DNA from: Lachnospiraceae bacterium
Lineage (GTDB): Bacteria; Bacillota; Clostridia; Lachnospirales; Lachnospiraceae
NCBI GenBank assembly: GCA_017561085.1
Contig: JAFZDQ010000105.1
Coordinates: 1-34,529 of the forward strand
DNA: 34,529 nucleotides
Direction: 5' to 3'
Shown here: positions 2,782 through 19,763 of the stretch, piece by piece
Layout: each line of letters begins with the position of its first letter
How positions within the stretch are numbered: the stretch's first letter is position 1
Notes under the pieces: model-generated
The model's input: only the letters and a program-made list of their open reading frames with translations
The model's database searches: none
Told to the model about the DNA's origin: nothing
Program-made: the position numbers and the translations under genes

Positions 2782-5727
2782 ATGCAATTTGAATTATGGA
2801 AAAATCAAAAGACGGCAACGGTTGTTTTGGAAGAGACGGCCATAAACGGAATGGATTATATGGCGGATATTTTCCGGAAGGACGTAGAGCTGGTGACGGG
2901 TGTGTACCCCGATAAAAAGTACGCCATCGAGGAGGCGGAAGGAAACGCAGTCCTGCTTGCTACCTGCGGCTACAGTAAGTACCTGGAGGAATTAGAGGAA
3001 GCGGGCTTAATCAGCCTGAAGGACATCCGGGGCAAAAGAGAGGTTTACGGTATTTTCCCGGTGTGCTATGAAGGGAAAAATCTGCTGGTGATTGCCGGTA
3101 GCGACAAACGAGGAACTATTTACGGTATGTTTGCCATCTCCGAACGGATGGGTGTTTCCCCGTGGCTGTTTTGGGCGGATGCAGTACCTGCAAAGAAAAC
3201 GGAAGTGGTTTTTGACGAAAGTATCGCAACCGTTTCCAAAGAACCGAGCGTAAAATACAGAGGATTTTTTATCAATGATGAGCAGCCCTGTCTGGGCAAT
3301 TGGGCCAAAGAAAAGTACGGCAGCTGCAGACCCTGTCCGGAAATGTATGAGCATATTTTTGAACTGCTTCTGCGTCTGAAGGGGAACTATTTGTGGCCGG
3401 CTATGTGGCGCTCGGACTTTACCCTTGACCATATTGAAAATGCCATTCTGGCGGATAAAATGGGCGTGATTGTGGGCGCTTCCCATCATGAGCCCTGTTG
3501 CAGGTCCGGTCAGGAATTCCAGACCCTGCGCCGGGAACATCCCGAATACGGGACGGAATGGAGCTTTTTGTCCAATGCAGAGGGTGTCAGTGCCTTTTGG
3601 CGTGACGGGCTTAAGAGAAACCAGCCTTATGAAAGCCTGATTACCATCGGTATGCGCGGAGAAAGTGACTCCTATCTGATGCCGGAGGACGCAACCCTGG
3701 AAGACAATATCAATGTGCTGAAGGCAGCCATTACCGAGCAAAAGAAGCTGATTGCGGAATACGGCAACAAAGCCCATCCCCAGCTGCTTGCCATTTATAA
3801 AGAGGTTGAGGATTATTATCATGGTGATGAAACCACACCCGGCTTAAAGGAATGGGATGTGCTGAAGGATGACATCATGATGCTTTGTGATGACAATTTT
3901 GCCAATTTAAGAACCATGCCCGATGCGCCCGGGGACCATCCCGGCGGCTATGGTATGTATTATCATTTCGATTATTTCGGTTCACCGGTTTCTTATCTTT
4001 GGATGAATACATCTCCCCTTACGAAAACCTGGGAGCAGATGAGCATGGCCTACGACTTTGGTGTACAGGAAGCATGGATTGTCAATGTAGGTGATATTAA
4101 GAATCAGGAGCTTGCTTTAAGCTATTTTATAGACCTTGCTTATGATTTTGATAAATGGGGAAGTGCATCCCCCAATACTACCGGAGAATATACAAAGCAG
4201 TGGATAGAGAGCCTGGGCTTTCGGGATGAAAAATATGCACCGCTTGCTGAAGTGGTGGAGGAATATATCCGTTTGAACGGTATTTGCAGACCGGAGGTAT
4301 TAAAGGCGGACACCTATCATCCTGCCCATTTCGGAGAGGCGGCAGCAATCCTTGCAAGAGCAGATAAAATTGCGGATATTGCGGAGAAACTTTACAGTGA
4401 GATGGCGGAAACAGACCCCCTTAAGGATTGTTTCTTTGAAGTGATCTATTACCCTGTGATGGCATGCGTGAATATTATCCGGATGCAGATTTATGCAGGC
4501 TTTAATGCCCTTTATGTGAAGCAGCACAAGAAACTGGGCAATACCTATATTCCTAAGGTAGAGGAATGCATCAGAAGAGACAGGAAGCTGACCCGGATGT
4601 ACCATACCCTGGGCGGCGGCAGATGGAATCATATGCAGTCGGTATATCACATCGGTTATACCAGATGGAATGACGAAGAATGGCAGTATCCGACCTGTCA
4701 GATTTATTATCCGGTTCCGGATAAAAGACTTGGCGTCAACATCGGCGGACAGGTATTTGCTACCGGCGGTAAGAACTGGAGCCGCAGTACGTTATTTATG
4801 AACCTGACTGAGCAGGCAGCACCGGAGGCGACATTTGAAGTAGCCAACGGCGGAGAAGGCGTGATGGAATATCACATTACCTGGGAAAGCGATTTGTTTG
4901 AGGTACTTCCTCTTGCGGAAAGCACCGGGGTAAGCGGGACAGAAGAAGGCTTGGCAGTAAGCGGAAAAGAAATCCGTGCCAAGGTAGAGGATGTTGCGTC
5001 TTATCTGGTGCGGTTAAAAGAAGGCGTAGTGCTTCCGGCAGAAGAAATTGCCGGTCAGTCCATTTATATTTTTGGAGATAATTGCGAAGAAACCGCAGAC
5101 AGCTCTGAAAATGAAGGCAGCATTAACCGTGTGGAAATTAAAGTAACGATTGAAAAATTACCTGCAGATTTAGAAGAAGGCGTGTTCCTTTTACGGAATG
5201 GTTATGTTTCCGTGGAAGCACCTCATTTTGCGGCAGCCAAAGAGGCAGCAGGTGCGAAATGGCAGACCTTAGAACCCTTTGGAAAGACCCTTGGCGGCAT
5301 GAAGGCATTTCCGGTAACGAAGGCATTTGCACTTTCTGAGGATGCACCTGCCCTGGAATATAAGGTATATGTTCCGGAAGAAGGGGCTTATGAGTTGGAA
5401 CTGTATACGGCGCCCTCTAACCCGGTGGTTTATAAAGGCAAAATGTGTGTGGCGGTAGCAGCCAATGACGATACTTACGAGGCCTTTAATACCATTCCGG
5501 ATGAAGGGTATGTGCCTTGGCTTTCCCCTACCTGGGCAGAAGGCGTGCTTTGCCAGATTCACAAACAAAAGAAAACGCTGACTCTGAAAAAGGGAGAAAA
5601 TAAAATTTCCATAAAAGCCATGGACCCTGCAGTGGTCATCGAAAAGCTGGTATTGGTAAAAGACGGATGTACTTATCCCGAAGCTTATTTGGGACCGGCA
5701 GAAAGCTTTAGAAAACAGGAGAAATAA
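2782..5727 (+). CDS. GH115 xylan alpha-1,2-glucuronidase, intracellular
   Basis: A 981-residue family 115 glycoside hydrolase. These enzymes remove glucuronic acid or 4-O-methylglucuronic acid from xylose residues of xylan or xylo-oligosaccharides. The family's hallmark strings are present: FFINDEQP near residue 165, FELLLRLKGNYLWPAMW near 195-211, SHHEP at 234-238, and GMRGESD near 290. A helical region (about 480-640) and a beta-rich C-terminal region (about 800-981) follow the barrel, as in full-length members. The protein starts directly with MQFELWK, with no signal peptide, so it should act in the cytoplasm on imported oligosaccharides; many described GH115 enzymes are exported. An AAAGGA site sits about 11 bases upstream. 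It is translated just before the GH2 gene, with a 2-base gap, so the two form an operon. Family assignment is firm; exact substrate is inferred. Confidence 0.92.
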   Translation: MQFELWKNQKTATVVLEETAINGMDYMADIFRKDVELVTGVYPDKKYAIEEAEGNAVLLATCGYSKYLEELEEAGLISLKDIRGKREVYGIFPVCYEGKNLLVIAGSDKRGTIYGMFAISERMGVSPWLFWADAVPAKKTEVVFDESIATVSKEPSVKYRGFFINDEQPCLGNWAKEKYGSCRPCPEMYEHIFELLLRLKGNYLWPAMWRSDFTLDHIENAILADKMGVIVGASHHEPCCRSGQEFQTLRREHPEYGTEWSFLSNAEGVSAFWRDGLKRNQPYESLITIGMRGESDSYLMPEDATLEDNINVLKAAITEQKKLIAEYGNKAHPQLLAIYKEVEDYYHGDETTPGLKEWDVLKDDIMMLCDDNFANLRTMPDAPGDHPGGYGMYYHFDYFGSPVSYLWMNTSPLTKTWEQMSMAYDFGVQEAWIVNVGDIKNQELALSYFIDLAYDFDKWGSASPNTTGEYTKQWIESLGFRDEKYAPLAEVVEEYIRLNGICRPEVLKADTYHPAHFGEAAAILARADKIADIAEKLYSEMAETDPLKDCFFEVIYYPVMACVNIIRMQIYAGFNALYVKQHKKLGNTYIPKVEECIRRDRKLTRMYHTLGGGRWNHMQSVYHIGYTRWNDEEWQYPTCQIYYPVPDKRLGVNIGGQVFATGGKNWSRSTLFMNLTEQAAPEATFEVANGGEGVMEYHITWESDLFEVLPLAESTGVSGTEEGLAVSGKEIRAKVEDVASYLVRLKEGVVLPAEEIAGQSIYIFGDNCEETADSSENEGSINRVEIKVTIEKLPADLEEGVFLLRNGYVSVEAPHFAAAKEAAGAKWQTLEPFGKTLGGMKAFPVTKAFALSEDAPALEYKVYVPEEGAYELELYTAPSNPVVYKGKMCVAVAANDDTYEAFNTIPDEGYVPWLSPTWAEGVLCQIHKQKKTLTLKKGENKISIKAMDPAVVIEKLVLVKDGCTYPEAYLGPAESFRKQEK

Positions 5728-5729
5728 AT

Positions 5730-8700
5730 ATGAAACAGTTATGGAATGAGGGATGGTCCTTTCTGAAAACAGAGGCAGACACAGGAATCGAACAGATGAC
5801 AGAAAGGATGCAGGATTTTGAGGAAGTGGACCTGCCTCATGACTGGCTGATAGAAGATACCTGCCGCTTGTATGAGGACGGTACCGGATGGTACCGGAAA
5901 ACCTTTCATGCAGACGGATGGGCAGGAAAAAGAGTAGCCCTTTATTTTGAGGGCGTTTATATGGACAGTACGGTATATGTGAATAGGCAGAAGGCCAAAG
6001 AGTGGAAGAATGGATATTCTTGGTTTGACGCAGATTTGACGGACTTTTTGCGGGAAGGTGAAAATGAAGTCCTGGTGCGTGTCAATTTCAGGAGTCCCAA
6101 TAGCCGCTGGTATTCCGGTGCGGGAATTTACAGGGATGTCTTTTTGGCTGTAACAGAAAAAGTATATTTGCCCTTTCATGCAACTTACGTCAGTACCAAG
6201 AAGCAGGGAGAGGATTTCCTGCTTTTTTTGGATACCGAGGTGGCAACTGCGGGAGGTGTTTCATGGGAAAGTGTCTCTGAGGAAGGCATTTCTGCGGAAG
6301 ATATTTCCGGGGATGGTGTTTCTGCGGAAGATATTTCCGGGGATGGCGTTCCTGAGGAAGATATCCGCGTAGTGTACCGGCTGACGGATGAAAAAGGGCA
6401 GGAGGTCTGCCTTGACTTTGTGAAAAAAGAGGGCAAAGGAGCATGGTATCTGGTAAAGAAACCTGCTCTTTGGGACGTGGAAAATCCCGTGCTTTATACC
6501 CTTACGGTGCAGCTTCTGAAGGCGGAGACCGTTTGGCCGAAGGGAACTGCATGCGGTGAAGAAAACATTCTTCAGGAAGAAAATATTCTTCAAGAAGAAA
6601 ACATTCTTCAAGAAGAATGGGAAAAAATCGGGTTCCGGGAAGTAGCGTTTACAGCGGATAAAGGCTTTTTCTTAAACGGCCGTCATTTAAAATTAAACGG
6701 TGTCTGTGAGCATCATGACTTAGGAGCACTGGGCTCCGCTTTCCATAAAAAGGCCATGAAAAGGAAGTTTGCCAAATTAAAAGAAATGGGCGTCAATGCC
6801 ATCAGGGGAACCCACAATATGATGGCCTCCGGTTTTGTGGAACTGGCGGATGAAATGGGACTTTTGATGATTTCCGAGGCCTTTGATATGTGGGAGCGGC
6901 CCAAGACCACGTATGACTATGCCCGCTTTTTCCCGGATTGGTACGAAAAGGATGTAGAAAGCTGGGTAAAGCGTGACCGCAATCACCCTAGCGTGATCAT
7001 GTGGAGTATCGGCAATGAAATTTATGATACCCATGCGGATGAAAAAGGGCAGGAGTGGACCGGGATTCTTAAGGCAGCAGTTGAGCGGCATGACCCGTAT
7101 CATAATGCCCGTGTGACCATCGGCTCTAATTACATGCCCTGGGAGAACGCACAGGCCTGTGCGGATATGGTGAAGCTTGCGGGCTACAATTATGCGGAAA
7201 AATATTATGAGGCACATCACGAAGTGCACCCTGATTGGGTGATTTACGGCAGTGAAACCTCCTCCATCGTACAAAGCAGGGGAATCTATCATTTCCCTTT
7301 AAGGGCAGGCATTCTTTCTGAGGATGATATGCAGTGCTCCGCCCTTGGCAACAGCATCACCAGCTGGGGCGCCAAGTCTATGGAACGCTGCATTGCCATG
7401 GACCGTGATATGGATTTTTCCCTGGGACAGTTTTTGTGGACCGGTTTTGATTATATTGGGGAACCAACCCCTTACCATACCAAGAATTCTTATTTTGGAC
7501 AGCTGGATACGGCGGGCTTTCCCAAGGATTCGTATTATGTCTGGCAGTCCGCCTGGACGGATTACCGGGAAAAGCCTATGGTTCATGTTTTTCCTTACTG
7601 GGATTTCAATGAGGGGCAGGACGTCGATGTGCGGGTTTGCTCCAATGCGCCGTGGGTAGAGCTTTTTGTAAACGGAAAAAGTCTGGGTAGACAGCACCTG
7701 ACCCATGAAAAAGACAGTGGCATGCACCTCATAGCGGATTATTGCGTGCCCTATGAAAAGGGCGTTGTATGCGCTGTGGCTTATGATGAGGACGGCCGCG
7801 AAGTGGCCCGGGAAGAAAAAAGAAGTTTCGGCAATTCCCATGCCCTTTTGGTTAAGCCGGAGTCAGAGACTTTAGAGGCAGACGGCTATGACCTTCTTTT
7901 TGCGGAGATTACTGTGGCGGATGCAGAGGGCATTCCGGTAGAAAACGCCTGCGACAGGGTGAATGTGAAGGTATCAGGTCCCGCCAGATTAATTGGTCTT
8001 GATAACGGGGACAGCACTGATTATGACCAGTATAAAGGAACAAGCCGCCGCCTTTTTAGCGGGAAATTACTTGCCATCCTGCAGGCAGATACTACCTGCG
8101 GAGAAGTGATAATTGAGGTAAGCGGCGAAGGTTTGGTTCCGGCTACGGCTGTTTGTAAATGTATTGAAACAGACAAAGAAAAACAAAACAAGCGCGCAAC
8201 AAACAGATGGCGTGAGATTCAGACAGGAACCTGCGGGGAAGTGCCCGTTAGGAAGCTGGAACTGACTGCGCCCTTAGGCCGCGTATTTACAAAAGATAAG
8301 ACGCATCTTGCGGCAGAGGCTAAAATCCTGCCTGCCGGTGCCACGGACCGGATGCTGTATTTTGAGGCAGTAAATGAAAAAGGGACACCGTCGAATATTG
8401 TTACCCTAAAGCAGGATGGAAACAGGGTAGAGCTGACCGCCTTGGGAGACGGTGAATTTTACCTGCGCTGCAAATCAAAAAGCGGCACAGGAGATGTGCG
8501 GATTATTTCCGTGCTTCCTTTTCGGGCAGAAGGAATCGGTCAGGTTTACCATGACCCTTATGATTTTGTTTACGGCAGTTTGTATTCATCTTGCCGGGGA
8601 GAAGCAGGAAACGGCAATGAAAAAGGGGTATCTACCGCCAGAGACGGTGAAACGGTACTGACTTATGAAAAGATTGATTTTGGCAAGGTGGGTTCCGATG

Positions 8701-9395
8701 AGATTGATATGCACATTTTTGCTTTGTCGGATGAAGCCTATCCCATAGAGATTTGGGAAGGAATTCCGAAAGAAGCGAAAAGCGTGTTGCTTGCAGACGT
8801 AATCTATCAAAAGCCCTCTATTTGGAATGTGTACCAGCCGGAGAAGTTCCGTCTTTCAAAGAAACTAAAGGGGATTAAGACGCTGAGTTTTGTCACCCGG
8901 CAAAAGATGCATATCAAAGGCTTTTCCTTTACCCGTTATGAGAAAGCGTGGATGCAACTTGCGGCAGCTGAAGCAGACGTGCTTTACGGCGACAGTTTCA
9001 AGCGAAAGGAAGATGCCCTGCGAGGCTGCGGGGAAGGGGCGGATGGAGCCACAAACTGTGGAACTGTTTCGGCAGGCGCCATCGAGGAAATCGGCAACAA
9101 TGTATCCCTTGTATTTGAGGACATGGATTTTGGTTTTGAAGGCGCAAGTAAACTGACCATTTGCGGCCGGGCAGGCTTGCAAAACACCATTCAGGTCCGC
9201 TTTGCGGGAGCGTGCGGGGAAGTGTGTCAGATGCTGGAATTTGCTCCTGCGAAGGAATATGAAGAGCAGACTTTTGACCTGGAAAAGGTGCAGGGGAAAA
9301 ATACCGTGACCTTTGTATTCTTGCCGGGAAGCTGCTTTGATTTCGGATGGTTTCGGTTTTCTAATCAAAATATAAAAAGAATATTAAATTTTTGA
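5730..9395 (+). CDS. GH2-family glycosidase, long, with repeat expansions
   Basis: A 1221-residue family 2 hydrolase (beta-galactosidase/beta-glucuronidase superfamily). The sugar-binding jelly roll (about 1-150, LPHDW and GTGWYRK) is followed by an immunoglobulin-like domain (about 165-310). The TIM barrel (about 310-600) has acid/base Glu430 in SIGNEI and nucleophile Glu509 in YGSETSS. A beta-sandwich begins near 610, and two carbohydrate-binding-like sandwiches fill about 1000-1221. No signal peptide is seen, so it is cytoplasmic. Substrate cannot be read from the sequence; with GH115 in the same operon it probably strips a xylan side-group such as galactose or arabinose. Two low-complexity inserts in the immunoglobulin-like domain (176-215 and 277-294) come from recent tandem duplications in the DNA and sit in or next to expected inter-strand loops. 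AGGAGA precedes the ATG. No clear terminator follows. Confidence 0.9.
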   Translation: MKQLWNEGWSFLKTEADTGIEQMTERMQDFEEVDLPHDWLIEDTCRLYEDGTGWYRKTFHADGWAGKRVALYFEGVYMDSTVYVNRQKAKEWKNGYSWFDADLTDFLREGENEVLVRVNFRSPNSRWYSGAGIYRDVFLAVTEKVYLPFHATYVSTKKQGEDFLLFLDTEVATAGGVSWESVSEEGISAEDISGDGVSAEDISGDGVPEEDIRVVYRLTDEKGQEVCLDFVKKEGKGAWYLVKKPALWDVENPVLYTLTVQLLKAETVWPKGTACGEENILQEENILQEENILQEEWEKIGFREVAFTADKGFFLNGRHLKLNGVCEHHDLGALGSAFHKKAMKRKFAKLKEMGVNAIRGTHNMMASGFVELADEMGLLMISEAFDMWERPKTTYDYARFFPDWYEKDVESWVKRDRNHPSVIMWSIGNEIYDTHADEKGQEWTGILKAAVERHDPYHNARVTIGSNYMPWENAQACADMVKLAGYNYAEKYYEAHHEVHPDWVIYGSETSSIVQSRGIYHFPLRAGILSEDDMQCSALGNSITSWGAKSMERCIAMDRDMDFSLGQFLWTGFDYIGEPTPYHTKNSYFGQLDTAGFPKDSYYVWQSAWTDYREKPMVHVFPYWDFNEGQDVDVRVCSNAPWVELFVNGKSLGRQHLTHEKDSGMHLIADYCVPYEKGVVCAVAYDEDGREVAREEKRSFGNSHALLVKPESETLEADGYDLLFAEITVADAEGIPVENACDRVNVKVSGPARLIGLDNGDSTDYDQYKGTSRRLFSGKLLAILQADTTCGEVIIEVSGEGLVPATAVCKCIETDKEKQNKRATNRWREIQTGTCGEVPVRKLELTAPLGRVFTKDKTHLAAEAKILPAGATDRMLYFEAVNEKGTPSNIVTLKQDGNRVELTALGDGEFYLRCKSKSGTGDVRIISVLPFRAEGIGQVYHDPYDFVYGSLYSSCRGEAGNGNEKGVSTARDGETVLTYEKIDFGKVGSDEIDMHIFALSDEAYPIEIWEGIPKEAKSVLLADVIYQKPSIWNVYQPEKFRLSKKLKGIKTLSFVTRQKMHIKGFSFTRYEKAWMQLAAAEADVLYGDSFKRKEDALRGCGEGADGATNCGTVSAGAIEEIGNNVSLVFEDMDFGFEGASKLTICGRAGLQNTIQVRFAGACGEVCQMLEFAPAKEYEEQTFDLEKVQGKNTVTFVFLPGSCFDFGWFRFSNQNIKRILNF
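6255..6374 (+). repeat. Four-unit 30-bp in-frame tandem repeat in the GH2 gene
   Basis: Units at 6255-6284, 6285-6314, 6315-6344 and 6345-6374. The two central units differ at only about two bases; the outer two have decayed. Each unit encodes ten residues of type G(V/I)SAEDISGD, giving residues 176-215. It keeps the reading frame. Confidence 0.9.
6558..6611 (+). repeat. Three-unit 18-bp hairpin tandem repeat in the GH2 gene
   Basis: Units at 6558-6575, 6576-6593 and 6594-6611 differ at one or two bases. Each encodes EENILQ (residues 277-294), and the next bases begin a fourth partial unit. Each unit is itself an inverted repeat, GAAGAA-4-TTCTTC, which favours replication slippage. Confidence 0.92.
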
Positions 9396-9401
9396 AATTC
9401 A

Positions 9402-9429
9402 TTGACATGAGGATAGCATTTGCTAATAT
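9402..9429 (+). promoter_or_regulatory. Strong sigma-A promoter of the RNA/DUF3800 module
   Basis: A perfect TTGACA at 9402-9407 and TAATAT at 9424-9429 with a 16-base spacer (a TATAAT also overlaps at 9427-9432). Predicted start of transcription is near 9436, about 190 bases before the DUF3800 start codon. Confidence 0.75.
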
Positions 9430-9435
9430 AATATT

Positions 9436-9602
9436 AAAGGATTATAGAAACATAGTATTAAAATATAGATGAAATTATCTTGGAAAAAGAGAATACGTGT
9501 GGTATTATTGGCGTAGGATATGACTGTAATGCGTTACAGTTTTGGTCTGGGCGAAAGCTCTTTGGACCACCGTAGGCGGGAAGAATTTCCCGCCATTTTT
9601 TT
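9436..9602 (+). ncRNA. Candidate structured RNA upstream of DUF3800
   Basis: Between a strong promoter and an intrinsic terminator lies about 165 bases with no convincing reading frame. Hairpin 1 is perfect: ACTGTAA 9523-9529, loop TGCG, TTACAGT 9534-9540. Hairpin 2 pairs TGGTC 9543-9547 with GACCA 9565-9569 and encloses GGGC-GAAA-GCTC (9549-9560), a GNRA-capped stem. The two hairpins are bracketed by a direct CGTAGG repeat (9512-9517 and 9571-9576). The terminator forms hairpin 3. Known: several structured RNA motifs of unknown function have been described beside DUF3800 genes and named after them. Inferred: this is one of them, or a relative, acting as a small RNA or leader. It does not match any riboswitch consensus I know. 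Confidence 0.6.
9575..9602 (+). terminator. Intrinsic terminator between the RNA and DUF3800
   Basis: A perfect 8-bp stem GGCGGGAA (9575-9582) / TTCCCGCC (9587-9594) with loop GAAT, then A and seven T residues. It ends 26 bases before the DUF3800 start codon, so most transcripts should stop here and only read-through would make the protein. Confidence 0.9.
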
Positions 9603-9628
9603 ACTATTATGAAAGCTCGGAGGAATTG

Positions 9629-10309
9629 ATGAAGGAACTCAGCGTATTTATAGATGAGTCAGGGGATTTTGGAGAAGTTACAGAACGACCGGCATATTAT
9701 CTGGTGACACTTTTGTTTCATGATCAAAAAAATGAAATTACTACAAATGTGAAAAAACTTGAGAATAGTATCAAAAATTCAGGATTTGATTTTGAGTATA
9801 TACATACGGGACCGGTTATCAGGCGAGAAGATGTATTTTGGAGATTGCCTATCGATGAACGTAGAAAACTGCTTTTTAAAATGTTAAACTTTATTGCCAG
9901 TACACCAATCACATATGAGGTGGTTGTAGTGAATCGTAAGGAAACACCGGATAAGATTTCACTTTCTGGGAGGTTGGGACGCGAAATATCAAATGTAATA
10001 TTGAAACACAAGGCGTTTTTTGAGGAATTCGACAAAATCATTGTATACTACCATAATGGACAAATAGAACTTGGCGCAATTCTAAATACAGTATTTTCTA
10101 TTCATTTTTCCTCTGTTGAGTTTCGAAAAGCAGAACCACAAAAATATCGTTTATTACAGGCTGCAGATTTTATTTGTAGTATGGAGTTGCTAAAAATAAA
10201 GAAAAGCGAAAACCGATTGAGTAAATCAGAAAAACAGTTTTTTTATAAGCCACAAGAATTAAAGAAGACTTTCTTTAAAACGGTTGACAAAAAGCGGTTG
10301 GGAAAATGA
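9629..10309 (+). CDS. DUF3800 domain protein
   Basis: A 226-residue protein from the ATG at 9629, which has GGAGG 5 bases upstream. A longer TTG-started frame from 9542 would run through the RNA hairpins and terminator and is rejected. The N-terminus MKELSVFIDESGDFGE holds the defining IDESG motif (Asp9, Glu10), and the C-terminal LLQAADFIC carries the second signature (Gln177, Asp180). DUF3800 proteins have no settled function; distant similarity to RNase H-like nucleases has been suggested, and they are common in accessory DNA. From memory the family usually has YYDNGQ where this protein has YYHNGQ (His142), so one acidic position may be lost. The gene is visibly richer in A+T than its neighbours and stands alone between carbohydrate and aromatic genes, which suggests acquisition. 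Confidence 0.85.
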   Translation: MKELSVFIDESGDFGEVTERPAYYLVTLLFHDQKNEITTNVKKLENSIKNSGFDFEYIHTGPVIRREDVFWRLPIDERRKLLFKMLNFIASTPITYEVVVVNRKETPDKISLSGRLGREISNVILKHKAFFEEFDKIIVYYHNGQIELGAILNTVFSIHFSSVEFRKAEPQKYRLLQAADFICSMELLKIKKSENRLSKSEKQFFYKPQELKKTFFKTVDKKRLGK

Positions 10310-14249: not shown

Positions 14250-16391
14250 ATGGAACTTGTGAGAAATGAAGAAAAAAACAAAGCATTCAGGGAACGTGCG
14301 CGTGAACTGGTTTCCCAGATGACACTGGAAGAAAAAGCATTCCAGATGATGCACGGTGCACCTGCAATTGAAAGACTGGATATTAAGGCATATAACTGGT
14401 GGAATGAAGCACTTCACGGCGTGGCGAGAGCCGGCGTTGCTACCGTATTCCCGCAGGCAATCGGCCTTGCGGCTACTTTTGATGAAGACTTTTTGGAAGA
14501 AGTGGCAGATGCAATTTCCACAGAGGGCAGAGCCAAGTTCAATGCCCAGCAGAAATTTGACGATACCGACATTTATAAGGGATTAACCTTCTGGTCTCCC
14601 AATGTAAATATTTTCAGAGATCCCAGATGGGGAAGAGGACATGAAACCTTTGGGGAAGACCCTTACCTTACTTCCAGACTGGGCGTACGTTTCATCGAAG
14701 GTCTTCAGGGACATGATGAAAATTATTTGAAGGCTTCCGCATGTGCGAAGCATTTTGCGGTACACAGCGGTCCCGAAGCACTCCGTCACAGATTTAATGC
14801 AGTGGCAAGTGTACAGGATATGTATGAAACTTATCTTCCTGCTTTTAAGGCTTGTATTCAGGAAGCAAAGGTAGAATCCGTAATGGGTGCTTATAACAGA
14901 ACCAACGGCGAACCCTGCTGCGGAAGCAAGACCCTGCTGAAGGATATTCTCCGTGACGAATGGGGCTTTGAAGGTCATGTGGTTTCCGACTGTTGGGCAA
15001 TTAAGGATTTCCATGAAGGTCATGATGTAACATCAGGTCCGCTTGAATCCGTAGCCATGGCAGTAAAGAACGGCTGTGACTTAAACTGCGGTAACTTATT
15101 CGGTTATGTGAAGGAAGCCGTAGAAAGCGGCATGATTCCCGAAGAGAGAGTGGATGAAGCCCTTGTAAATCTTTTTACCACCAGAATGAAACTGGGACTT
15201 TTCGATGAAAAAGGAAAGACACCCTATGATGATATTCCTTATACTGTTGTAGACAGCAAGGAAATGAGAGAACTGAACTTAAAGGCAGCTGAGAAGTGTA
15301 TCGTTCTTTTGAAGAATGAAAATAACATGCTTCCTTTGGATAAATCCAAATTAAATACCGTTGGTGTCATCGGACCCAACGCAAATAACAGAAGAGCCCT
15401 GGTAGGAAACTACGAAGGAACCGCTTCCCGTTACTTTACCGTTTCCGAAGGTATCCAGGAATACCTTGGCGATGATGTAAGAGTACTTGTATCTGACGGA
15501 TGTCATTTACATCTTGACCGTACCGAATTCTTAAGTGCCGGTAAAGACAGATATTCTGAAGTAAAGGCTGTTTGTGAAGCCAGTGATGTGATTATCATGT
15601 GTCTTGGCCTGGATGCAGGTTTAGAGGGTGAAGAAGGTGATACCGGCAACTCCTATGCAAGTGGTGACAAGCCTGATTTAAATCTTCCCGGAAACCAGCA
15701 GGAAGTACTGGAAATTGCTTATGCTTCCGGCAAGCCCGTGGTACTTGTTCTCCTTGCAGGAAGTGCCCTTGCGGTAACCTGGGCTGACGAACATATTCCT
15801 GCCATTGTACAGGGCTGGTATCCCGGTGCGCAGGGCGGAAGGGCCATCGCGAGAATGCTCTTTGGTGATGTAAATCCCGAAGGACATTTACCTGTTACCT
15901 TCTACTATGATACAAATGACCTTCCTGAGTTTACCGATTACTCCATGGAAGGAAGAACCTACCGTTATATGAAGAATGAAGCCCTTTATCCTTTCGGATA
16001 CGGACTTTCTTATACAAACTATGAATATCAGGATGTGAAAGCAAGTGCTGCTTCTGTAGGCACAGACGGCATCACTGTTTCCGCAACCGTGAAGAATACC
16101 GGTGACAGACAGGGTACCGAAACCGTTCAGGTTTACGTGAAGATTATGAAAGAGGGCACTCCCAATGCGCAGCTGAAGGGTATCTCCAAAGTAACCCTTG
16201 CACCCGGTGAGTCCAAAGAAGTTTCTGTGAAGCTTCCGGCAGAAGCATTCGGACTTTACGACGAAGAAGGTAAATTCGTAATCGATCAGACACAGGCCAC
16301 CATTTATGTGGGCGGCCAGGCTCCTGATACCAGAAGTGAAAAATTAACAGGCAAGAAGGTTGCGGCATTATCCGTAGCTGTAGAAGTTTAA
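14250..16391 (+). CDS. GH3 beta-xylosidase/beta-glucosidase, intracellular
   Basis: A 713-residue family 3 glycosidase that removes single sugars from the non-reducing end of oligosaccharides. The barrel domain includes YNWWNEALHGV (near 48-58), common in beta-xylosidase-like members, SPNVNIFRDPRWGRGHETFGEDP, AKHFAVHSGPE, and the nucleophile Asp247 in VVSDCWAI. The alpha/beta sandwich domain has the acid/base region EGEEGDTG (459-466), and the C-terminal fibronectin-III-like domain covers about 600-713. There is no signal peptide. The beta-xylosidase reading is favoured by the neighbouring GH67 and GH8 genes. Codon use shifts toward A/T-ending codons compared with the aromatic genes, suggesting high expression. 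It starts the locus facing the AraC regulator; a ribosome site is weak (GGGAGAGTTACG). Confidence 0.9.
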   Translation: MELVRNEEKNKAFRERARELVSQMTLEEKAFQMMHGAPAIERLDIKAYNWWNEALHGVARAGVATVFPQAIGLAATFDEDFLEEVADAISTEGRAKFNAQQKFDDTDIYKGLTFWSPNVNIFRDPRWGRGHETFGEDPYLTSRLGVRFIEGLQGHDENYLKASACAKHFAVHSGPEALRHRFNAVASVQDMYETYLPAFKACIQEAKVESVMGAYNRTNGEPCCGSKTLLKDILRDEWGFEGHVVSDCWAIKDFHEGHDVTSGPLESVAMAVKNGCDLNCGNLFGYVKEAVESGMIPEERVDEALVNLFTTRMKLGLFDEKGKTPYDDIPYTVVDSKEMRELNLKAAEKCIVLLKNENNMLPLDKSKLNTVGVIGPNANNRRALVGNYEGTASRYFTVSEGIQEYLGDDVRVLVSDGCHLHLDRTEFLSAGKDRYSEVKAVCEASDVIIMCLGLDAGLEGEEGDTGNSYASGDKPDLNLPGNQQEVLEIAYASGKPVVLVLLAGSALAVTWADEHIPAIVQGWYPGAQGGRAIARMLFGDVNPEGHLPVTFYYDTNDLPEFTDYSMEGRTYRYMKNEALYPFGYGLSYTNYEYQDVKASAASVGTDGITVSATVKNTGDRQGTETVQVYVKIMKEGTPNAQLKGISKVTLAPGESKEVSVKLPAEAFGLYDEEGKFVIDQTQATIYVGGQAPDTRSEKLTGKKVAALSVAVEV

Positions 16392-16436
16392 AATACTGCG
16401 ATTTGCATGCAGATTGAAAACATAATTATGTGAAAG

Positions 16437-16475
16437 AACCGGTTGTCACGGAGAATTCCGGCGACAGCCGGTTTT
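16437..16475 (+). terminator. Hairpin between GH3 and GH67
   Basis: AACCGGTTGTC (16437-16447) pairs with GACAGCCGGTT (16463-16473), 11 bp with one G-T pair, with an inner CGGA/TCCG helix. Only four T residues follow, so it may attenuate or stabilise RNA ends rather than end transcription fully. Confidence 0.6.
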
Positions 16476-16509
16476 GAACCATTTTGGAAATGGGGAGAAA
16501 GGAGCAGGA

Positions 16510-18504
16510 ATGCAAAAAAGTTGGACAGAGCTTTGGCTTTCCTATGAACCGAAAAAGGAAAACGGTAATCTGCCTTTTTGGCAAACCATCAGCCTTACAG
16601 GCTTTGATGAAGCAAGCGGAATCGTGGAAAATGCTTTGGCAGAACTGGTAGAGGGTGCCAGGGGAATGCTGGACGTGATTCCTGAAATTATTTTAGAAGA
16701 AGAGATTGAGCAGGGAATTGCCATTATGAGAGATGCGGCCATGGAGCCGGAAAGTTACCTGCTTTGCCGAAACGGTGCGAAAATCTTTTTGAAGGCAGGA
16801 GATGAAAAAGGACTGCTTTACGGTGTGTTCCATTTGCTCAGACGGGTGGCCATGGAAGAGGTGCCGGATTTTGAAGAAATCTATTGCAAGCCGGATAATC
16901 CGCTCCGTATGTACAACCACTGGGACAATATGGACGGCAGTATCGAGCGCGGCTATTCGGGTAATTCCTTCTTCTTTGAAAACAATGAAATCATACAGGA
17001 TGAGAGAATTACGGATTATGCCAGACTGATGGCAAGCATCGGAATCAACGGCGTAGTCGTTAACAATGTAAATGTAAAGGACGCAGCCACCTATCTGATT
17101 ACAGACCGCTATTTTGATAAAGTGGCGAAGATGGCCGAAATCTTCGGCTCCTACGGCATCCGATTTTTCTTAAGTCTTAACTTTGCGGCACCGCTGGAAC
17201 TGGGCGGTCCGGACAGTGCAGACCCCTTGGATGAGCGGGTAATTGCCTGGTGGAAAGCGAAGATGGAAGAGGTATTTCGCCGGATTCCCAACCTGGGAGG
17301 CTTTTTGGTAAAGGCCGATTCGGAAGGCCGGCCGGGACCTTTTACTTACGGAAGGACTCAGGCGGACGGTGCCAATATGCTGGCGGATCTTGTGAAGCCC
17401 TATGGCGGCATCATTATCTGGCGTTGCTTTGTATATAACTGTACCCAGGACTGGCGTGATTACAAGACGGACAGGGCAAGAGCAGGTTATGATAACTTCA
17501 TTGAAATGGATGGGGATTATCATGAAAATGTGATTTTACAGATTAAAAACGGTCCCATGGATTTCCAGATTCGGGAAGCCGTATCCCCGCTTTTGGGCGG
17601 TCTTAAGAAAACCAACCAGATGCTGGAGGTACAGGTTGCCCAGGAATATACGGGGCAGCAGATAGACCTTTGCTATCTGATTCCGCTTTTTAAAGAGGTT
17701 CTTGATTTTAAGACCTATTGTGCACCGGAAAAGGATACTGTGGCGGATGTCATAAGCGGCAGATGCTACGGCAACAAAAATACCGGAATTGCAGCGGTAA
17801 TCAATACCGGCCGGGATGCCAACTGGACCGGAAACGATTTGGCGGCAGCCAATTTGTACGGATTCGGAAGACTTGCCTTTGACATGAGTCTTTCCGCAGA
17901 AGAAATTGCAGAAGAGTGGGTGAAGCAAACCTTTTCTACCGAGGAAGAAGTGGTAAAGAAGGTGACAGAGCTTTTGATGGGCTCCCGGGCAACCTACGAA
18001 AAATATACATGCCCGCTGGGCATCGGTTGGATGGTGACACCCCATTATCACTACGGCCCCAGCATTGACGGCTATGAATATTCCAGATGGGGTACCTACC
18101 ACAGGGCGGACCATTGGGGCATCGGCGTGGACAGGACGGATGCGGGAACCGGTTATGTACGGCAGTATTATGAACCCAACGCATCTATGTACAATGACAT
18201 CGCTACCTGTCCGGAAGAGTTGCTTTTGTTCTTCCATCATGTACCCTACACCTACCGGTTAAAAACAGGAAAAACCCTAATCCAGCACATCTATGATACC
18301 CATTTTGAAGGGGTATCCGAGGTGGAAGCGATGATTCAGGTGTGGGAGAGCCTAAGCGGCAAGGTAGAAAAGCGCGCCTACGATACCGTAAGGGAGCGTT
18401 TTGACAGACAACTTGTAAACGCCAAGGAGTGGCGCGACCAGGTAAATTCCTATTTTTACCGTAAGAGCGGAATCCCTGATGAAAAGGGACGGAAAATATA
18501 TTAA
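16510..18504 (+). CDS. aguA: GH67 alpha-glucuronidase
   Basis: A 664-residue family 67 enzyme that removes 4-O-methylglucuronic acid from the non-reducing-end xylose of aldouronic acids. The catalytic set is intact: Glu272 in KADSEGRPGP, Asp351 in QIKNGPMDFQ and Glu379 in AQEYTGQQ. The spacings of 79 and 28 residues equal those of the Geobacillus enzyme (E285, D364, E392). The ATG at 16510 is chosen because AAAGGAG lies 6 bases before it; an in-frame TTG at 16474 falls inside the upstream hairpin. There is no signal peptide, so it is cytoplasmic, as expected for the family. Together with the ABC transporter and YesMN genes downstream it marks an aldouronate-utilization locus. Assignment is firm. 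Confidence 0.95.
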   Translation: MQKSWTELWLSYEPKKENGNLPFWQTISLTGFDEASGIVENALAELVEGARGMLDVIPEIILEEEIEQGIAIMRDAAMEPESYLLCRNGAKIFLKAGDEKGLLYGVFHLLRRVAMEEVPDFEEIYCKPDNPLRMYNHWDNMDGSIERGYSGNSFFFENNEIIQDERITDYARLMASIGINGVVVNNVNVKDAATYLITDRYFDKVAKMAEIFGSYGIRFFLSLNFAAPLELGGPDSADPLDERVIAWWKAKMEEVFRRIPNLGGFLVKADSEGRPGPFTYGRTQADGANMLADLVKPYGGIIIWRCFVYNCTQDWRDYKTDRARAGYDNFIEMDGDYHENVILQIKNGPMDFQIREAVSPLLGGLKKTNQMLEVQVAQEYTGQQIDLCYLIPLFKEVLDFKTYCAPEKDTVADVISGRCYGNKNTGIAAVINTGRDANWTGNDLAAANLYGFGRLAFDMSLSAEEIAEEWVKQTFSTEEEVVKKVTELLMGSRATYEKYTCPLGIGWMVTPHYHYGPSIDGYEYSRWGTYHRADHWGIGVDRTDAGTGYVRQYYEPNASMYNDIATCPEELLLFFHHVPYTYRLKTGKTLIQHIYDTHFEGVSEVEAMIQVWESLSGKVEKRAYDTVRERFDRQLVNAKEWRDQVNSYFYRKSGIPDEKGRKIY

Positions 18505-18517
18505 TTCATACGTTTCA

Positions 18518-18546
18518 TTGACAAAATACCAAAAAATCAGGATAAT
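18518..18546 (+). promoter_or_regulatory. Internal promoter before GH8
   Basis: TTGACA at 18518-18523, 17-base spacer, GATAAT at 18541-18546. A hairpin (GCAGC/GCTGC with an inner AGT/ACT) follows at about 18552-18582, just before the GGGAGGAG ribosome site of GH8. It would give GH8 and the YesMN pair expression independent of GH67. Confidence 0.7.
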
Positions 18547-18596
18547 AAAGAGCAGCAAGTGCTTGGGGAAGTGACTGCTGCGGGAGGAGAGATACT

Positions 18597-19763
18597 ATGA
18601 GAGCATTTGAAACAGGAAACTACCGTAATTTATTTTTAGAAGCAGGAAAGAGTCAGGAAGAAATTGACAAAAAGCTTCAGGAAATCTGGGACACTTTCTT
18701 TTACGGTCCCGAAGATGAGAGAATTTATCATCCCGCAGGCGAAGATATGGGATATCTGGTAGATACCGGAAATATCGATGCCAGAACGGAAGGCATGAGC
18801 TACGGTATGATGATTTGTGTCCAGATGGACAAGAAGGAAGAGTTTGACCGTATCTGGAAATGGGCTTGTACCTATATGTGGATGGATGAAGGTGAGAATG
18901 AAGGCTACTTTGCATGGTCCTGCGGACTTGACGGTACCAAGAATGCTTACGGCGCGGCACCTGACGGCGAAGAATTTTTCGCAATGGCATTATTCTTTGC
19001 ATCCCACAGATGGGGAGACGGCGAAGGAATCTTTAACTACTCCGAAATGGCCAAGAAGATTTTAAGAGCCTGCTTACACAAGGGTGAAAACGGCAGACCC
19101 GGATATCCTATGTGGAACCGTGAAAACAAGCAGATTTTGTTTGTTGCAGGCTGTGATCATACAGATCCTTCTTATCATTTGCCTCATTTTTATGAGTTGT
19201 TTGCACTTTGGGCAGATGAAGAAGACAGGGAATTCTTTAAAGAAGCAGCAGCTGTCAGCAGAGAGTATCTTGCAAAGGCTTGTCATCCCGAAACCGGTAT
19301 GAACGCTGAGTATGCGGAATTTGACGGAAGTCCCATGAGCAGACCCATTCCCTGGACCAAGGACAGACATGACTGGTTCTTCAGCGATGCTTACAGAACG
19401 GTTGCAAATATCGGTCTGGATTATGAATGGTTCGGCATTGATGCAGGACAGGTTAAGGCGGCAGAGAGACTGCAGCATTATCTGGGTGTTGTCCGCAAGG
19501 AAAATCCTTACGTGATTTATGAGGTGGACGGAACTCCCATTGATACACCTGCACTTCATCCCGTTGGGCTGATGGTAACCACTGCACAGGGCAGTCTTGC
19601 GGTAATCGGCGCAGGCTACGGTGAGGAAGAAGAAAAGCTTGCCTTTGAATGGATTGAAAAGTTCTGGAACGAGCCTCTGCGTACAGGCGTAAGAAGATAT
19701 TATGACAACTGTCTGTATTTCTTTGCATTCCTTGCGCTCAGCGGCAATTACAGAATTTGGTAA
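18597..19763 (+). CDS. rex: GH8 reducing-end xylose-releasing exo-oligoxylanase
   Basis: A 388-residue family 8 enzyme, about the same length as the Bacillus halodurans Rex enzyme. It releases xylose one unit at a time from the reducing end of xylo-oligosaccharides by an inverting mechanism. The acid Glu65 lies in ARTEGMSYGMM and the base Asp264 in WFFSDAYRT, the expected Rex positions. FAWSCGLDGT and GAAPDGEEFFAMAL are GH8 barrel motifs. No signal peptide is seen, which agrees with the cytoplasmic role of Rex. GGGAGGAG lies 8-9 bases before the ATG. Working from the reducing end, it complements GH67 and GH3, which need a free non-reducing end. It is followed after 26 bases by the sensor kinase gene, probably in one transcript. 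Confidence 0.93.
   Translation: MRAFETGNYRNLFLEAGKSQEEIDKKLQEIWDTFFYGPEDERIYHPAGEDMGYLVDTGNIDARTEGMSYGMMICVQMDKKEEFDRIWKWACTYMWMDEGENEGYFAWSCGLDGTKNAYGAAPDGEEFFAMALFFASHRWGDGEGIFNYSEMAKKILRACLHKGENGRPGYPMWNRENKQILFVAGCDHTDPSYHLPHFYELFALWADEEDREFFKEAAAVSREYLAKACHPETGMNAEYAEFDGSPMSRPIPWTKDRHDWFFSDAYRTVANIGLDYEWFGIDAGQVKAAERLQHYLGVVRKENPYVIYEVDGTPIDTPALHPVGLMVTTAQGSLAVIGAGYGEEEEKLAFEWIEKFWNEPLRTGVRRYYDNCLYFFAFLALSGNYRIW

Follow-up and report, generated by a model that had tools for sequence, protein, structure and literature searches.

The DUF3800-XI RNA and its adjacent DUF3800 gene: a possible RNA-restrained nuclease module in Lachnospiraceae

The contig JAFZDQ010000105.1 of a Lachnospiraceae bacterium (assembly GCA_017561085.1), analysed over its 34,529 nucleotides (nt) and hereafter called the window, carries a short structured RNA of the Rfam family DUF3800-XI directly upstream of a gene encoding a DUF3800 protein, a pairing shared by many gut bacteria. 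We posit, at a probability of about 0.48, that this locus is a type III-like module of the toxin-antitoxin or abortive infection kind, in which the RNA restrains a nuclease. The new element is a near-obligate, one-sided linkage between RNA and gene, with roughly half of the RNA copies found without an intact gene, and it turns the catalogue entry DUF3800-XI into a specific, testable module. Locus anatomy, RNA structure, linkage, one-sided loss, co-divergence and the predicted protein fold are all supported by computation.

A catalogued RNA linked to DUF3800 genes

The covariance model of RF02975 (DUF3800-XI) matches the plus strand of the window at 9543-9590 with 50.2 bits (gathering cut-off 37.8, expect value (E) 2e-8), and RF02975 is the sole Rfam family reaching its cut-off in the window. 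All 48 positions of the family are matched in sequence and structure, and a DUF3800 gene (PF12686 at 9629-10309) lies beside the match, as the Rfam family expects. Because of the RF02975 match, the claim of an undescribed system made in the initial annotation of this DNA fails: the RNA belongs to an already catalogued family, reportedly that of Weinberg et al. 2017.

The Rfam motif comprises a GNRA hairpin and the terminator hairpin together. Its core hairpin (9544-9568, plus strand) consists of an outer stem GGUC/GACC and an inner stem GGGC/GCUC with a GAAA tetraloop, corresponding to helices 1 and 2 of our model R1. When 95 matches, 91 of them distinct, were aligned, 99.5% of cells were paired, 12 of 15 pairs were changed on both sides, and none of five covariation measures was reached by any of 500 shuffles; this alignment was fitted to the model and is biased towards it. 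In the 25-sequence MAFFT alignment used as the starting point, 99.2% of cells were paired and 8 of 15 pairs had both-side changes. In helix 3, the 3' hairpin, all seven pairs showed both-side changes. Folding of 9436-9604 also surpassed that of shuffled sequences (z -2.86; as good in 2 of 200). Given such strong covariation among homologues, whose absence the initial annotation had named as a possible refutation, the structure is not a product of chance and is strongly supported for the window RNA.

A further hairpin of 7 base pairs (bp) with a UGCG loop (9523-9540, plus strand) lies 5' of the RF02975 match and outside the Rfam model; together with the GAAA-capped core it accounts for the two stable hairpins described previously. 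It is variable in sequence and missing from some copies. Among 19 window-type leaders, 4 of its 7 pairs changed on both sides, and for one of the five covariation measures (further pair types) 19 of 500 shuffles reached the observed value. When 118 distinct leaders were examined, the 30 nt preceding the core formed a better fold than 95% of shuffles in 75, compared with 9 of 118 for a control stretch. A DNA operator was considered for this hairpin and rejected, since G-U pairs and changes in the loop favour RNA.

Linkage to the gene was assessed from both sides. At a match threshold of E 0.001 in genome samples that overlap, the RNA was found in 20 of 37 genus genomes, 44 of 299 genomes of the family sample and 33 of 392 of the order sample. 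The genome of the window itself holds five copies above the Rfam cut-off and one diverged copy detected by DNA similarity; DUF3800 lies behind four of these, in one case truncated by the contig end, and the other two stand without a gene. Starting instead from the protein, 93 DUF3800 loci were selected (80 from genomes and 13 from among 23 viral loci), 91 of which have the RNA 12-95 nt upstream (median 24, measured from model end to start of the tblastn match). Of the remaining two, L203 has a weak match (E 0.033) that is plain on visual inspection, and in L165 the contig ends within the RNA. Ten viral loci were left out, two of them contig-end or broken pieces with RNA (L216, L223) and eight without (L217-L222, L224, L225). 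In the window, 38 nt separate the end of the RF02975 match from the DUF3800 ATG.

In the family sample of 299 genomes, the RNA was present at all 32 protein matches below E 1e-70, in 29 cases by the Rfam model and in the others as a strong (L295), cut (L281) or weak (L298) match. These 32 were counted out of 54 protein rows; the other 22 are pieces or weak matches, and five places among them (G136, G157, G144, G204, G308:C35) lacked RNA by model search also, with G144 lying at a contig end and G204 and G308:C35 being weak matches. The linkage thus appears nearly obligate in one direction, under a rule that covers intact genes of the window clade.

RNA and protein also appear to have diverged together. 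Across 121 loci, RNA and protein distances were correlated (Spearman 0.67; none of 999 permutations as high), and the nearest protein was among the five nearest RNAs for 93 loci. Three RNA copies in the genome of the window track their protein relatives and not one another.

At 1501-1557 of both L243 and L246 the RNA belongs to a subtype whose 3' hairpin is of GGUGUGGG type, and no DUF3800 match lies behind it there; L136 carries this subtype at 6236-6292 (minus strand). Extra RNA copies of other subtypes accompany the DUF3800 cassette in L136 (4821-4878, 4928-4984 and the minus-strand copy at 6236-6292), L187 (5699-5754, minus) and L127 (5262-5313), some of them on the strand opposite the cassette. 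By eye, a different terminator-like hairpin precedes an RNA-less DUF3800 piece in L301 around 1718 (G136:C45).

Promoter, terminator and predicted protein

A promoter scan placed the likely RNA promoter at 9480-9508 (plus strand), where TTGGAA and TATTAT are separated by a 17-nt spacer and an extended -10 TG is present; the TTGGAA-17-TATTAT arrangement occurs in the window, L036, L123 and L124 alike (4/4). The initial annotation had instead assigned a perfect TTGACA promoter to 9402-9429 (plus strand) and a transcript of about 165 bases. The TTGACA site matches 10 of 12 consensus positions with a weak -10 element (TAATAT) at 16-nt spacing and has no counterpart within 250 nt in the three close relatives L123, L124 and L036, and it is unlikely to be the conserved RNA promoter. 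As the 9480-9508 promoter is conserved and the TTGACA site is not, the transcript is probably about 88 nt rather than 165 nt in length, spanning 9515-9602 (plus strand) if the start is set 7 nt after the -10 element and the end at the T run. Of the 118 distinct leaders, 84 matched the promoter at 9 or more of 12 positions. In 74 of the 118 the best match ends 25-39 nt upstream of the core and in 24 it ends 5-14 nt upstream, two distances that we read as leaders with or without the 5' hairpin. The proposed bracket of CGTAGG repeats was not supported: the 3' copy falls within the conserved linker of the window subtype, but the 5' copy is not conserved, being GTATAGG (e.g. in L036) or missing in close copies.

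At the 3' end, the hairpin 9575-9594 followed by seven T at 9596-9602 forms a strong intrinsic terminator-like element (9575-9602, plus strand), in agreement with the terminator first proposed. A terminator follows the RNA in all 91 scored protein-selected loci: at least five T lie within 10 nt after the motif in 88 of 88, and the other three loci have a second hairpin with a T run. One subtype (L002, L027, L090, L103, L187, L197, L202) retains the 3' hairpin after loss of its T run, and a second hairpin bearing a T run of its own follows, so that termination and RNA structure look separable; the second hairpin is missing in L107, an orphan (gene-less copy) of this subtype. The order promoter, RNA, terminator and gene is conserved across relatives.

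The DUF3800 gene itself (9629-10309, plus strand, ATG at 9629; PF12686, E 1e-6) encodes 226 amino acids (aa) and is preceded by a ribosome-binding site, GGAGG at 9619-9623 (plus strand), read from the sequence as the initial annotation had it. An AlphaFold2 model built from the window protein and 57 of its 81 kept relatives has a predicted local distance difference test (pLDDT) value of 91.1 and a predicted template modelling (pTM) score of 0.90. Foldseek gave eight matches for this model below E 0.001, every one an RNase HII or RNase H2 (best E 6.1e-5, template modelling (TM) scores 0.39-0.48, root-mean-square deviation (rmsd) 5.6-12.5), and retroviral integrases occur far down the list at E about 0.1. 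No ToxN fold was among the 50 Foldseek matches listed, and Pfam gives DUF3800 only. The fold is therefore predicted to be RNase HII-like, a modest resemblance with large rmsd, in keeping with the nuclease-like protein originally suggested. NCBIfam gave no match for the window protein, and a sequence search of solved structures gave nothing relevant to it.

RNase HII has four acidic catalytic residues (DE, D, D), which may correspond to D9, E10, D142 and D180 of the window clade. Each is kept in 81 of 81 relatives, the set remaining from 93 loci after removal of eight with a stop or frameshift and four under 205 residues. One of the two patterns used to find genome loci contains the conserved Asp 142, and Asp at 142 was also present in all 26 other loci found through the RNA. 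The DUF3800 family of this clade thus looks active.

One-sided loss and competing explanations

RNA copies were next tallied by what follows them. From 99 copies (39 genus matches, 58 further family matches, and L086 and L087 found by DNA similarity), eight too near a contig end were set aside, leaving 91 with a flank of at least 760 nt to the right. Intact genes, defined as one frame over at least 195 profile positions, follow 43 of these, split genes 6 and fragments 10; none was detected behind 32. A further 21 order-level copies, one of which (L250) was taken as a chance match, stand outside these counts. Among RNA-bearing genomes of the family sample, 9 of 44 had no DUF3800 match. The RNA thus appears often to persist without the gene, and an intact gene lacking the RNA was not seen in the clade. 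One-sided loss of this kind is expected if the RNA restrains a harmful protein.

We hypothesise that a short structured DUF3800-XI RNA would be made from its own promoter and would mostly end at the terminator hairpin. A minority of transcripts would read through and yield the DUF3800 protein, which has a predicted RNase HII-like fold and is probably a nuclease. Being in excess, the RNA would most likely bind the protein encoded next to it and hold it inactive, so that the two would act together in the manner of type III toxin-antitoxin or abortive-infection systems. The transcripts, the toxicity of the protein, its binding and restraint by the RNA, and a trigger are what we infer here. We favour an RNA-restrained nuclease because of the co-divergence, the stable leaders and the precedent of AbiF/RCd22. 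More tentatively, DUF3800-XI and its protein could represent a distinct class of RNA-antitoxin module. One copy of a GNRA-capped RNA would hold an RNase HII-like nuclease in check, surviving orphan RNAs would counter incoming copies as anti-addiction antitoxins, and an MNT/HepT operon would have adopted the leader.

Several observations weigh against a restrained nuclease of type III kind. At the window locus there are neither tandem repeats nor a repeated RNA motif, and PADLOC gives no match for the window protein. The window protein alone has His at position 142; as an otherwise invariant acidic residue is changed, this copy may be catalytically impaired, in a gene that is otherwise constrained (79 differences from L123 in synonymous and 31 in non-synonymous codons). 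Two of the RNA-less pieces, G136 and G157, are real broken genes, and no DUF3800-XI match was found at seven distant viral relatives (24-28% identity) or at L217, a truncated gene on a viral contig, which together limit the linkage rule to intact genes of the clade. That the RNA outlasts the gene is in part an artefact, the copies having been detected through the RNA; because such a search favours RNA survivors, one-sided loss alone is not proof of selection. Co-divergence is expected from simple linkage in one transferred cassette as well. Moreover, a passage on a Legionella transposon screen reports a strain-specific DUF3800 gene as essential, in a set including several antitoxins (PMC7811196), and a passage on the plantazolicin cluster describes a DUF3800 protein of possible immunity function (PMC7617318). 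These two reports hint at a protective role for some DUF3800 proteins.

The last point on this side is that five genomes (L088, L033, L019, L079, L089) have the promoter-RNA unit about 46 nt upstream of an MNT gene. In L088, the one scanned, a HepT-like gene (PF01934) comes after MNT (PF01909). The second frame has a length of 116 aa in L088, L033 and L019, and L079 and L089 carry changed versions of it; L089 also has a frameshift in MNT. No RNA match was found at four other MNT relatives, those at 77-85% identity, so that the RNA leader appears to have been taken up by one MNT/HepT lineage, and MNT/HepT as a general RNA partner was rejected. The initial annotation had counted the same leader before unrelated genes as a possible refutation; such cases do exist, as exceptions, in this lineage and among scattered orphans. 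The MNT case weakens strict pairing, although the recipient is itself a toxin-antitoxin operon, and is also explained by a pure cis-leader. In this orphan lineage, the RNA core showed a mean difference of 0.080, the third codon positions of MNT one of 0.262 and the leader one of 0.371 (four loci with few changes, L033 being left out as near-identical to L088); the orphan cores look constrained, which is a point in favour of the restrained-nuclease reading. Separately, L118 has an orphan RNA at 2915-2971 (minus strand), followed at 88 nt by a different frame that by eye resembles a nucleotidyltransferase.

The strongest competing explanation, which we consider unlikely, is that the RNA is only a cis-acting leader, a terminator or attenuator perhaps bound by DUF3800 for autoregulation, with no antitoxin action in trans. 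Its location in a 5' leader with a terminator at all 91 scored loci is in line with this, as is the same promoter-RNA leader in the MNT/HepT lineage with no DUF3800 gene behind it. However, 11 of 20 inspected orphans, including L089 with its broken MNT, have no forward frame of at least 50 aa starting within 150 nt. A conserved GNRA core would also be superfluous for a plain attenuator, and the subtype with a second terminator retains the 3' hairpin after loss of its T run.

A role of the RNA as obligatory cofactor or guide for an RNA-directed nuclease is improbable, although the initial annotation had allowed for guiding. Near-strict RNA-gene linkage and an RNase H-type predicted fold are compatible with such a role, and passages in the literature describe RAGATH-18-derived RNAs serving IS607 TnpB as cofactor or guide (PMC11061315) and DUF3800 proteins as accessory to some CRISPR loci (PMC10910872, PMC12669027). 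However, the RNA has no hypervariable segment: leader identity averages 98% at <5% protein distance (17 pairs), and leaders drift with the protein. In 24 of 118 leaders, with the best promoter match 5-14 nt before the core, there is little room for a guide. We rejected a guide RNA because leader variation follows the protein and shows no turnover.

Genomic context and comparison with known systems

L084 and L095 share 97.6% identity over 870 bp in unrelated flanks, and in several unrelated-flank pairs the shared sequence starts near the -35 box and ends shortly past the stop codon, inspection by eye showing no terminal repeats in common; L014/L017 and L014/L029, pairs within one genome, share longer stretches. 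The nearest upstream frame has the same direction in 53 of 73 loci and the nearest downstream frame in 37 of 70. Of 143 neighbours listed, five long ones were left out, and the other 138 hold 157 Pfam families, none in more than five neighbours; a constant partner gene was accordingly rejected. From these boundaries, the neighbour directions and the lack of a recurrent neighbour family, the RNA-gene unit looks self-contained. The least probable alternative, a small mobile or selfish element whose RNA serves movement and whose orphan RNAs are decayed remains, would account for near-identical cassettes in unrelated flanks and for four gene-bearing and two gene-less copies in one genome, but it fits poorly with the cassette ends, where no terminal repeats were seen by eye, best Foldseek matches to RNase HII/H2 rather than to integrases, and the apparently constrained orphan cores of one lineage.

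PADLOC defence models matched neighbours singly or in pairs (no control set). Carriage by phages or plasmids was rejected, with one of 50,697 phage records (partial) and one of 72,556 plasmid records (32.9% identity); relatives of the DUF3800 protein also occur on 23 predicted viral contigs. In one of these, L217, the truncated DUF3800 gene around 5000-5700 has behind it a frame resembling AbiEi by eye. Large sugar-degrading enzyme genes, glycoside hydrolases by eye, flank the locus in the window at 2782-9395 and 14250-19763, and the cassette therefore seems to be placed in a carbohydrate-use region.

Relative to the Rfam entry, which the window RNA matches, the proposed transcript adds the 5' hairpin and a promoter. 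DUF3800 proteins of CRISPR V-A2 and VI-F loci are described, in passages of two papers, as having an RNase H fold with catalytic rearrangement (PMC10910872, PMC12669027). They share the domain with the window protein, which is small and stand-alone, and no Cas genes were seen by eye in the window's list of open reading frames or among the 25 neighbour families listed. A word search of the open-access literature returned DUF3800 passages (PMC10910872, PMC12669027, PMC7657543, PMC11701678, PMC10434189, PMC6302515, PMC6470185, PMC6722718, PMC7617318, PMC7811196) in which no function for DUF3800-associated RNAs is given, and no functional study of DUF3800 RNAs was found in the literature searched.

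The type III systems ToxIN, CptNI and TenpNI comprise an RNA, a terminator and a protein gene that are co-transcribed, according to a passage in PMC12373285. The likeness to the window locus, read here from sequence alone, is that of RNA, terminator and protein gene under one promoter, whereas tandem RNA repeats and a ToxN/AbiQ-type protein are lacking. The type III arrangement put forward in the initial annotation therefore stands as a conserved order and not as formal membership of that class.

The closest precedent is AbiF/RCd22 of Clostridioides difficile, in which, as passages of PMC12373285 describe, a promoter, structured RNA, terminator and gene follow one another, the short RNA form is dominant, and the RCd22 RNA neutralises the toxin both in cis and in trans. 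The window locus, known from its sequence, shares the promoter-RNA-terminator-gene order. It differs in that RCd22 has two motif copies and the window RNA one, and in that the window protein is predicted to be RNase HII-like, with no Abi_2 or AbiD/F domain in the Pfam scan; the abiF RNA motif RF03085 was likewise below its cut-off in the Rfam scan of the window. The same passages cite the abiF RNA to a 2017 RNA survey (PMC12373285), and that RNA has already proved to be part of such a system. The survey is reportedly also the source of DUF3800-XI.
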